Shown piece by piece: positions 21,543 through 62,511 of a DNA stretch of 64,000 nt (the first letter of the stretch is position 1; each line of letters opens with the position of its first letter). The position numbers and the translations under genes were made by a program. The stretch is from contig JAGVZE010000007.1 in NCBI GenBank assembly GCA_018302815.1, positions 62,001 through 126,000 of the forward strand, given 5' to 3'. Source of the DNA: Candidatus Woesearchaeota archaeon. Its GTDB lineage: Archaea > Nanobdellota > Nanobdellia > Woesearchaeales > ARS49. Below the pieces are notes generated by a model. It was not told the DNA's origin. It did not search any database and saw nothing but the letters and a program-made list of their open reading frames with translations.

Positions 21543-21608
21543 AGAATATCTTTCTCACTTGAGGTTTAAAAGGTTTATCCTGATTGATGGGCGATTTATC
21601 CAAAATCA

Positions 21609-21618
21609 CACTGGACAG
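21609..21618 (+). promoter_or_regulatory. CACTGGACAG box upstream of LAGLIDADG gene 1
   Basis: Exact match to boxes upstream of the other two LAGLIDADG genes. Confidence 0.6.
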
Positions 21619-21660
21619 TCAGCCGTAACACTTTTTATCCTCAGAAACCTTGCAACTTGA

Positions 21661-22515
21661 ATGGAATACCTTGTTCTTAAACCCGGAGAATTGCGCGGTT
21701 TTCTTCAAAATTCAAAGAAAAAGTTAACGTTCACATGGGACGAGTTCGCCAGATTTCTTGGCGTGAATCGAAGCATGATTTTCTTCTATTTACAGGAAAA
21801 GTCAAAGTTTCCTCTCAGTCATTATGAGTTTATATGCAAGAAGCTCAACGTTTCACCTATTAAGTTCAATACGGTTAACATAACAAATAAGTTAAAAAAA
21901 GTTCAGTTTCCCGAACAATCCGAACAGCTTGCAGAATTCCTTGGCATCATGGCAGGAGATGGACATCTTGGACGTCCAGCATACGAAATCTCGATTGCTC
22001 TTGACAAAAACTCGGATAAAGACTACGTCTATCATGTTTCTGCGCTTCTTGAAGATATTTTCAAAACAAAGCCCTCAATCTATCATCAGAATAACATAAC
22101 TCGTGTAAAAATCTATTCAAAGGAATTATTCAATTTTCTTCATCTGAGTCTTGGAATGATTTCAGGCAATAAAATGAACAAGTTGCGAATCCCCTCTTTC
22201 ATTTTGAGCAATAGATTATTCTTGGCAGCATTTTTGCGCGGTGTTTTTGATACTGATGGAAGTTTTCATCGACACCGCCCAACAGACGCAGCAGCAGAAA
22301 TAACCAGCGCAGACGCTCGATTTTTACAAGAAGTAACCGCGGCCCTTCTTTTCCTTGGAATCAGAGCAACTTCATCAGGAAGAAATGTGTACATTTACTC
22401 TAAAGAACACATTCATCGCTTTTTTATGAAAATCCGACCGTCAAATCCCAAACACCAAGCAAAATACGCGTACTATTGTACACATGGCAAAGTACCACTT
22501 AAAAATGCAATTTAA
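21661..22515 (+). CDS. LAGLIDADG homing endonuclease-like protein with N-terminal HTH
   Basis: AEFLGIMAGDGHLG and AFLRGVFDTDGSF motifs. Confidence 0.85.
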   Translation: MEYLVLKPGELRGFLQNSKKKLTFTWDEFARFLGVNRSMIFFYLQEKSKFPLSHYEFICKKLNVSPIKFNTVNITNKLKKVQFPEQSEQLAEFLGIMAGDGHLGRPAYEISIALDKNSDKDYVYHVSALLEDIFKTKPSIYHQNNITRVKIYSKELFNFLHLSLGMISGNKMNKLRIPSFILSNRLFLAAFLRGVFDTDGSFHRHRPTDAAAEITSADARFLQEVTAALLFLGIRATSSGRNVYIYSKEHIHRFFMKIRPSNPKHQAKYAYYCTHGKVPLKNAI

Positions 22516-22556: not shown

Positions 22557-22627
22557 GCGCCGATAATATAGTGGTAGTATCTCACCCTTCCAAGGTGATC
22601 GCCTGGGTTCGAATCCCAGTCGGCGCA
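22557..22627 (+). tRNA. tRNA-Gly(TCC)
   Basis: gcgccga/tcggcgc acceptor, tcacc-cttccaa-ggtga anticodon arm, ctggg-ttcgaat-cccag T arm. Confidence 0.95.
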
Positions 22628-41888: not shown

Positions 41889-41898
41889 CACTGGACAG
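41889..41898 (+). promoter_or_regulatory. CACTGGACAG box upstream of LAGLIDADG gene 2
   Basis: Exact 10-mer, 45 nt before ATG. Confidence 0.6.
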
Positions 41899-41942
41899 AT
41901 TCGGACGTGAGGCATTTAAACCGATTTATTTCTTAATTAGTT

Positions 41943-42755
41943 ATGTCTTCTTTTCAGCCAATTCCTATCAGCAAACGAGCGCGATTGAAACAATTGCGTT
42001 TTCCTACCGAACCATCGGAAGATCTCGCTTATTTCTGCGGGTTGATGGCGGGAGATGGTCATATCGCGATGAGAGAAAGCAAAGCGGATTATTACTTGAC
42101 AATCGAAGGCAATCCTGCTGATGAACGAGAGCTCTATTCTCAAATTGTTTGTCCTCTTGTGAAGCGTCTTTTCAATATCGACATTCAACCTCAAATGTTC
42201 CAGCACACATATGGGATAAGAATACGATCAAAGGCATTGATGGAATATTTAACTACGCAGCTTAAACTGCCAAAGAATCGAAAATACTCGCAGCTCACAA
42301 TTCCGCATTGGATAAACTATGATAACCGCTTTCTTATCAACTATGTTCGCGGACTTGCAGATACAGACTTCTGTTTATGCTTCAAAAAACGACATAAATC
42401 AGTCCCTTATTATCCGGTTATAATCGGAGTGTCTGAAAGCAAATCGTATTTAGAAGAAATCGCGAAAACTCTTGAGACTTTTGGTTTCACTGTTTCACGG
42501 CATTACGACTATCGCTATCCTGATTCGAGATTAAAAGCGGGATATTACATTCATCATAGAATTTATCTTTACGGCTACGCTCAACTCAAAAAGTGGATGG
42601 GTACAATAGGGTTTCAAAGCCCTAAACACCTTAACAAGTATGAACATTGGCGAGATGTAACACTCACGACCCTGCCTGCTTTAAAGCCAAATGCTAAAAG
42701 AAAAGAGGCCCGGGGAGTTCCGACCCGGCCTCAAAATAGCGGGGGGTGGATTTGA
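41943..42755 (+). CDS. LAGLIDADG homing endonuclease-like protein
   Basis: AYFCGLMAGDGHIA; NYVRGLADTDFCL. Confidence 0.85.
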   Translation: MSSFQPIPISKRARLKQLRFPTEPSEDLAYFCGLMAGDGHIAMRESKADYYLTIEGNPADERELYSQIVCPLVKRLFNIDIQPQMFQHTYGIRIRSKALMEYLTTQLKLPKNRKYSQLTIPHWINYDNRFLINYVRGLADTDFCLCFKKRHKSVPYYPVIIGVSESKSYLEEIAKTLETFGFTVSRHYDYRYPDSRLKAGYYIHHRIYLYGYAQLKKWMGTIGFQSPKHLNKYEHWRDVTLTTLPALKPNAKRKEARGVPTRPQNSGGWI

Positions 42756-42929: not shown

Positions 42930-43015
42930 GCTACCGTGGCACAACCTGGTACTGCGCGGGATTGCTAATCCCGTTTCCCGCAAGGGATTTCCCGGTTCAA
43001 ATCCGGGCGGTAGCG
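42930..43015 (+). tRNA. tRNA-Ser(GCT)
   Basis: gctaccg/cggtagc acceptor, cggga-ttgctaa-tcccg, long variable arm, cccgg-ttcaaat-ccggg. Confidence 0.95.
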
Positions 43016-43114
43016 CTTATTTTTCGTCAATTGCGCCAGAGTTATCTTCTGCTCTACGTACAACCGTACTTCCTCTACCAAACCGCTAAATAAACTTCTG
43101 CGCACATAAATAAT

Positions 43115-52797: not shown

Positions 52798-52813
52798 CAC
52801 TGGACACTGGACA
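52798..52813 (+). promoter_or_regulatory. two overlapping CACTGGACA boxes
   Basis: CACTGGACACTGGACA upstream of TATA-like gtataaaaagg. Confidence 0.5.
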
Positions 52814-52879
52814 TTCTCCTTAATGGAGTATAAAAAGGAAACAGCGAATAAGAGTATCAGACGAAAAAGAGGTGACCCA

Positions 52880-52981
52880 ATGGAAACAAAAACCATCCAA
52901 GCATTATTTTTCGAGCAAATCAGGCTCGTGACCCGAGAAACACTCATGAAACCAACAGGACTCAACCTGAGGAGGCACTAA
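52880..52981 (+). CDS. 33-aa small protein
   Basis: gaggtga SD; METKTIQALFFEQIRLVTRETLMKPTGLNLRRH. Confidence 0.55.
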   Translation: METKTIQALFFEQIRLVTRETLMKPTGLNLRRH

Positions 52982-52982
52982 A

Positions 52983-53093
52983 ATGGACTACTACGACGAA
53001 GCGGAAAGACCAGGAGCCATAGATTACTTCGAAGAAGAAGAAGACCTTGACGGAGCAGAAGCCGGCTTTTGGAAAGGATACGTCAGCGCCTAA
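52983..53093 (+). CDS. 36-aa acidic small protein
   Basis: gaggaggcac SD; MDYYDEAERPGAIDYFEEEEDLDGAEAGFWKGYVSA. Confidence 0.6.
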   Translation: MDYYDEAERPGAIDYFEEEEDLDGAEAGFWKGYVSA

Positions 53094-61664: not shown

Positions 61665-62307
61665 TCAAGAAATCTTTCGAGCATCAAGAATGGAATTGGC
61701 TTTTTTCTTTTTTGAGGGATTCGAGAATCCAATCTCGCTCATCCATTTCTCGACATTTTTGTATCCGTTCAATGGAACTTTGTAGCAGGGCAATGTGCTC
61801 AGTTTTCCCGGAGGGTCGCACCAAACATTCGCAACGTGAAATCCATTGTTCTCAAGAATCAATTTCAACTGTCTTGCCAGTTTAATGCTACACGTAGTAA
61901 TTTCAATCGAGGGATATTGCGGACTCCCTCTTTTGTTTGCCGTAAATATCGAACCATCAGTATCAACAATCCCTCGAACAGTATGACGCGCAAAATTCCA
62001 GTCATCAAAAATAATCAGGGGAATGACAACTTTCCCGCACTTTCCTTCACCCACAGGAAGACCATACTTTTGAGACAATTCCAAAAATATCGGTTTTGAA
62101 TTCACCACTATCCGAATCCCTCGACCTCCAACGAATATCCTTGACTATTTATTCCAAACTTTCCTGATTAACAGTTGTATATGTTCAAAATACTCCTTGT
62201 CTTTCTTTGGATCGCCAACAAAACCTATCCGATAGTGATTCTGAGTATTGCTCAGATTACCATCACCGATGATGATTCCAATTAATTCAGCAAGATATTC
62301 GTCCATA
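61665..62307 (-). pseudogene. LAGLIDADG endonuclease gene 3, interrupted by one in-frame TAG (62145-62147)
   Basis: AELIGIIIGDGNLS...RKVWNK*SRIFVGGRGIRIVVNSKP...TVRGIVDTDGSIF, same frame either side of the stop. Confidence 0.85.
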
Positions 62308-62350
62308 CAGTTGAATAAAAATAATCGTCTTAAATACTCCACGTCCATGG

Positions 62351-62360
62351 CTGTCCAGTG
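62351..62360 (-). promoter_or_regulatory. CACTGGACAG box upstream of LAGLIDADG gene 3
   Basis: Exact 10-mer on minus strand, 44 nt before ATG at 62307. Confidence 0.6.
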
Positions 62361-62413: not shown

Positions 62414-62511
62414 GGGGGTATAGTTCAGCCCGGGAGAACACATGCGCCTAATAAGCGCAGTTTAGACCGCTGAAGCCGGTGACGTCGCCGGTTCAAATCC
62501 GGCTACCCCCA
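62414..62511 (+). tRNA. tRNA-like gene, Ile-type anticodon loop (AAT) with ~27-nt variable region or non-canonical intron
   Basis: gggggta/taccccc acceptor; gttc/gaac D stem; tgcgc-ctaataa-gcgca; gccgg-ttcaaat-ccggc. Confidence 0.65.

Follow-up and report, generated by a model that had tools for sequence, protein, structure and literature searches.

The 64-kb stretch of woesearchaeal DNA analyzed here (the window) carries three LAGLIDADG genes, each near a tRNA gene and each preceded by the same short word. Gene 1 (21661..22515, + strand) encodes 284 aa with an N-terminal HTH-like stretch and lies 42 bp from a tRNA-Gly gene (22557-22627); gene 2 (41943..42755, +) encodes 270 aa and lies 175 bp from a tRNA-Ser gene (42930-43016); gene 3 (61665..62306, - strand) lies 54 bp from a tRNA-Ile gene (62414-62511). 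A sequence-only reading had described all three as LAGLIDADG genes sharing an upstream box. The box is present on each, but the genes differ in standing: the ATG frame of gene 3 (62306-62145) stops after 53 aa and the rest lies in another frame (62108-61665), so that the gene is no longer intact, and gene 2 matches the LAGLIDADG_3 profile of Pfam below threshold (18.6 bits against a curated cut-off of 22.5), although its length, context and motif nevertheless fit. Genes 1 and 3 score above the cut-off.

The box, CACTGGACA, lies at 21609..21617 (+), 41889..41897 (+) and 62352..62360 (-), in each case within an exact 10-mer, CACTGGACAG (21609-21618, +; 41889-41898, +; 62351-62360, -). The expected count of this 10-mer in the window is 0.04 (mean of shuffles), and none of 100 shuffles reached three copies. 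As had been reported, 43-45 nt separate the end of the box from the ATG (52, 54 and 54 nt when measured from its start), and the box stands upstream of the TATA region, with TATA-like hexamers 23-25 nt past the box start: TTTTTAT for gene 1 (21632..21638, +; 23 nt), ATTTAAA for gene 2 (41914..41920, +; 25 nt) and TATTTAA for gene 3 (62330..62336, -; 24 nt). The longer likeness claimed for the promoters of genes 2 and 3 is also real and equally spaced in both (CCACTGGACAG-N4-GGACGTG-N4-ATTTAA-N2-CGATT).

A fourth occurrence precedes a microprotein operon. Here two copies of the box (52798-52806 and 52805-52813) overlap by two bases to form a tandem with a 7-nt period, CACTGGACACTGGACA (52798..52813, +), followed 24 nt past the second box start by the TATA element TATAAAA (52829..52835, +). 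The operon encodes a 33-aa protein of a conserved, box-driven 'LFFxQIKxLT' family (52880..52981, +) and a 36-aa protein of a conserved acidic 'GF(M/W)xGYL' family (52983..53093, +).

Position of the box in the genome and across the order

The genome that holds the window (26 contigs, 1.55 Mb; 1,551,594 bases) was scanned in full. Random occurrence of the word, with no positional preference upstream of genes, had been named in advance as the outcome that would count against the box; this is not what the genome shows. Ranked by the presence of a TATA-like hexamer 22-26 nt downstream, CACTGGAC stands first of the 63,540 octamers that occur eight times or more: the spacing is found at 18 of 33 sites, compared to a background of 1.4% (P = 4e-25 before correction). 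The requirement for an exact word is strict. Sites with one mismatch to CACTGGACA show the spacing in 5 of 185 cases, no more than shuffled words give, and three of these five carry T at the last position. We accordingly rejected a relaxed version of the box, save for T at position 9. The element is thus the asymmetric word CACTGGACW, found 22-26 nt upstream of TATA in one orientation only, toward the gene. Doubling is common, both as CACTGGACACTGGACA with its 7-nt period and more generally as direct repeats spaced by 7 or 9 nt.

Approximately 20 promoters in this genome bear the box. For most, the box lies 52-55 nt from the start codon, a distance which, together with a TATA element near -26, implies leaderless messages; in the remainder a short leader carries a Shine-Dalgarno-like GGTG or GAGG. 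Box promoters are also unusual at the BRE. Ordinary promoters (n=719) have an A-rich BRE, with A at -5 in 60% and at -6 in 53%, whereas A occupies -5 in 7% of box promoters (n=134); a GTGA-like stretch takes the BRE position in 26% of box promoters, as against 2.5% of ordinary ones.

The same word is over-represented among relatives. In 57 related genomes CACTGGACA occurs 758 times and its reversed form 174 times, with an excess in 54 of the 57. Fixed TATA spacing separates box from reversed word by 30 to 1 in 24 genomes of the order, and by 7 to 2 in 117 genomes from elsewhere in the class; at single-box loci taken one per genome, the spacing is present at 11 of 34 sites, and the reversed word does not occur. 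Throughout the order the box exceeds expectation, whereas outside it the class shows a frequency close to chance. A scan of all GTDB contigs for a doubled box with TATA returned at least 105 stretches; among the 80 matches listed, 69 are labelled Woesearchaeota, 9 other or unspecified archaea and 2 bacteria. A search for tandem box plus TATA in viral contigs found none. The suggestion that the box marks a wider regulon is supported by the promoters of this genome and by an excess that runs to hundreds of sites over the order as a whole.

Three further observations concern short words and promoters. At four loci from two genomes (L310, L311, L319 and L320) two boxes stand 38-40 nt apart, and a conserved stretch, CGGAAGA...TTCCGGAAGATTT, surrounds the distal copy, possibly as a second regulatory site. 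The word TCTGTCCCACACCC has 25 copies in the genome of the window, none more than 200 nt from a contig end (e.g., C16, C17, C22); they resemble the termini of a multi-copy insertion element at which the assembly was interrupted. A TATA box lies 22-26 nt downstream of GTCCCACA at 13 of 37 sites in the same genome, suggesting that the element inserts just upstream of promoters.

Genes behind the box

The genes that follow the box give the finding a meaning that the sequence-only reading could not see: the content of the regulon is DNA repair plus mobile elements. In the genome of the window, Pfam and NCBIfam name as targets UvrB, DinB (IMS), the resolvase Hjc, a Cas4/PD-(D/E)XK (RecB-like) protein, an RNase H-like exonuclease (RNase_H_2) and three Bro-N proteins, one of which is a DNA damage-inducible protein D (DinD) equivalog (360 bits; cut-off, 242). 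An N6 DNA methylase is also box-driven, as are six LAGLIDADG genes, an SSB-like small protein, an HTH protein, the microproteins and one uncharacterized gene. Among the matches listed for 91 box-driven ORFs of relatives are Rad51/RadA, ERCC4/Hef (two), a 3-methyladenine glycosylase (Adenine_glyco), Cas4 (three) and Bro-N (nine), together with TnpB (four), tyrosine recombinases (three integrases), LAGLIDADG (three) and DNA methylases; further targets are RadC, Hjc, IMS (DinB) and, from single-box sites, DNA primase and VRR-NUC. Ninety-one control ORFs, taken from these contigs at a distance from any box, are housekeeping genes. For the N6 methylase, an RtcB-like ligase and a DUF4258 toxin-like gene, a theme of mobile elements and defence fits as well as repair.

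Individual targets turn over between genomes. The box precedes uvrB in just 1 of 18 uvrB-bearing genomes (that of the window) and dinB in 2 of 6 genomes, and neither these genes nor the free-standing LAGLIDADG genes are fixed members. In the genome of the window, six of seven free-standing LAGLIDADG genes carry the box, the seventh being degenerate, and six of seven lie 0-175 bp from a tRNA gene (in the window and on contigs C18 and C26); an intein-type LAGLIDADG domain in a 1263-aa frame (C21) was left out of this count. Across the order an exact upstream box is found on 17 of 59 free-standing LAGLIDADG genes (14 of 31 genomes) and the reversed word on none, while a tRNA gene is present in 32 of the 59 regions. 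From these counts we conclude that many, though not all, tRNA-linked endonuclease genes belong to the regulon.

Several conserved small families recur at the tandem-box loci. Of the 105 loci matched, at least 14 encode 'LFFxQIKxLT' microproteins and at least 11 'GFMxGYL' microproteins, sometimes accompanied by a zinc-finger-like microprotein; it is possible that the box-driven microproteins are small effectors of SOS type. At least 14 of the 105 loci encode the SSB-like 'KFxxGAIxATVWKN' family (~90 aa; C20:41752 in the genome of the window, L231:3825-4097 elsewhere), which corresponds to no Pfam or NCBIfam family. The predicted fold, four strands and a helix, is a confident model (pLDDT 83); Foldseek matches of the model to Pur-alpha and SsbA are weak (E above 0.07).

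Mode of action and alternative readings

What, then, does the box do? The sequence-only reading had proposed the site of an activator or repressor, and the data support a site of this general kind. A non-consensus BRE is expected if an activator recruits TFB/TBP, and we infer such a recruiting activator because the position of the box (about -51 to -43) and the non-consensus BRE resemble arrangements in Sulfolobus and haloarchaea. In the mechanism that we propose, a putative factor would occupy this asymmetric word of 8-9 bp, which spans about -51 to -43 relative to the transcription start, and recruit TBP/TFB to promoters with a non-consensus BRE. The genes would then be transcribed only while the factor is in its active state, which most likely follows damage to the DNA or accompanies recombination. 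Its targets would comprise repair, recombination and single-strand-DNA genes, the conserved microproteins and the nucleases of mobile elements. Transfer RNA-linked LAGLIDADG endonucleases, TnpB and tyrosine recombinases would have acquired the same promoter and, by sharing it, would time their cutting or movement to periods of homologous recombination, to the presumed benefit of homing and other mobile elements.

Candidates for the factor were sought. Two HTH families drawn from the box-driven genes themselves were judged by phylogenetic profile and rejected: a wHTH gene (C22:70980), box-driven in 5 of 24 sampled genomes that bear it, occurs in only ~30% of the order and is absent from box-rich genomes; the 'LGLLQPGDSRD' family, present in 67 of 79 genomes of the order, extends across the remainder of the class as well, which lacks the box. 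A dedicated TFB paralogue was likewise set aside, a crude pattern search of the genome of the window having shown one TFB-like and one Orc1/Cdc6-like frame and no second of either. Two separate observations were made on HTH genes. At six loci of relatives (L298, L300, L302, L303, L306 and L307) the wHTH gene lacks the box and has a different, palindrome-like motif (around CGACAnnTGTCGG) before TATA. A conserved HTH-like protein of ~155 aa, 'LGLLQPGDSRDVVVDVL' (C17:16942-17370 in the genome of the window; L176, L201), is found in 109 of 141 genomes of the class and matches no Pfam or NCBIfam family above the cut-off.

The target list itself invites comparison with bacteria, and could suggest a different mode of control: dinB, uvrB, dinD and the recA-type RadA resemble the bacterial SOS regulon, which is repressor-based, and the box could be the operator of a LexA-like repressor removed on DNA damage. 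We consider this unlikely. The box lies ~15 nt upstream of the TATA/BRE, the place of archaeal activators and not of repressors; with a non-consensus BRE, derepression alone would leave expression weak; the site is asymmetric, without a palindrome; and a phmmer search of all frames of the genome with a single query, E. coli LexA, gave no match at E 10. The signal, too, may be other than damage. Integrases, TnpB, methylases, Bro-N and SSB-like genes turn up among the targets as often as classical repair genes, and RadC and SSB are under competence regulation in some bacteria. Repair genes might thus be one part of a 'DNA-processing' regulon that answers to natural competence, the entry of plasmids or viruses or a stage of the cell cycle, or that simply uses an ordinary alternative promoter class; uvrB, dinB, dinD, 3-methyladenine glycosylase and Hef, however, point to lesions rather than uptake, and we give this reading a rather low probability.

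Two other readings turn on the mobile genes. Many carriers are mobile and the promoters of genes 2 and 3 are alike beyond the box, as they would be had promoter and gene spread together in a mobile cassette, their likeness reflecting common descent without regulatory function. We regard this as very improbable, for the promoters of unrelated genes have diverged outside the 9-mer but kept box and spacing unchanged, the box is present on chromosomal repair genes from many families, and single mismatches are not tolerated. The suggestion that the box is the endonuclease's own recognition or autoregulatory site, in favor of which stands its presence before each LAGLIDADG gene of the window, we consider most improbable. 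The same box at the same distance serves uvrB, dinB, dinD, Hjc, RadA and Hef, none of them an endonuclease of this kind; 42 of the 59 other free-standing LAGLIDADG genes in the order lack it; and LAGLIDADG recognition sites normally span 14-40 bp, whereas the box is a single asymmetric word of 8-9 bp tied to TATA.

Taken together, these data make CACTGGAC(A/T) a probable upstream activating element: it would control an SOS-like regulon of Woesearchaeales for DNA damage and recombination, mobile nucleases included. Counting against this reading are the turnover of individual targets, the rejection of both HTH candidates and the genes that suit a mobile-element or defence theme equally well. We also lean, if only somewhat, toward a broader proposal: that the box marks an order-wide, LexA-independent equivalent of SOS in DPANN, operated by a putative activator through the invariant CACTGGACA word, into which homing endonucleases at tRNA genes, TnpB and integrases have plugged themselves, synchronizing their cutting with the recombination state of the host. 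If true, homing endonucleases and TnpB elements would here clearly share a repair promoter with their host. An exact short box allows the regulon to be predicted from sequence, and hence tested in uncultured genomes; it also provides a means of tracing the regulator and points to likely functions for conserved families such as the SSB-like protein, the microproteins and the HTH proteins.

Comparison with known systems

A literature search found nothing relevant on the box motif or on damage regulons in DPANN or Woesearchaeota, and no paper describing a link between LAGLIDADG genes and a host DNA-repair promoter element. Genes 1 and 3 of the window resemble known free-standing LAGLIDADG homing endonucleases in their match to LAGLIDADG_3 and in their linkage to tRNA genes; they differ in their tie to such an element. 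In halophilic archaea a coordinated repair regulon of SOS type is thought to be absent (PMC5626843).

The closest parallels are archaeal. In Sulfolobales the DNA-damage element ANTTTC (DDRE) acts with Orc1-2 and TFB3 (PMC5817253, PMC9738581), and the UV-inducible ups promoters of Sulfolobus acidocaldarius have a non-palindromic hexanucleotide at -44 to -39 beside a weak BRE, established by experiment, with TFB recruitment proposed (PMC5817253). Common to both lineages are a short non-palindromic word on the near upstream side of a weak BRE, a fixed distance to TATA and a damage-response regulon, damage being the probable signal in our case. The position is analogous, but the words are unrelated; DDRE targets are for the most part genes of pili, of DNA transfer and of the cell cycle, as opposed to the classical repair genes and mobile nucleases behind the woesearchaeal box; and with regard to Orc1-2 and TFB3, the crude pattern search gave one Orc1/Cdc6-like and one TFB-like frame here. 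A haloarchaeal UV-B motif, TTTCACTTTCA, found ~50 nt upstream of start codons (PMC2556686), shares with the box this distance, a place upstream of TATA and an internal direct repeat, and includes radA1 and a transposase promoter. It is nonetheless another word, with a repeat period of 6 nt rather than 7, and serves four genes compared to ~20 promoters per genome.

With the LexA SOS system of bacteria the likeness lies in content: dinB, dinD, uvrB and a RecA-family gene are targets and mobile elements are tied in, with DinB, UvrB and DinD represented in the genome of the window and Rad51 and IMS in relatives, although single genes vary. The differences lie in control. The bacterial operator is palindromic and overlaps the promoter, whereas the woesearchaeal box is asymmetric and upstream of TATA; the promoter is archaeal, the one LexA query found no counterpart, and regulation is probably by activation. 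On these comparisons the box is best read as, by function, an archaeal promoter element of the DNA-damage type, set apart from those already described by its unrelated word, its lineage, its far more SOS-like list of targets and its unusual load of mobile nucleases.
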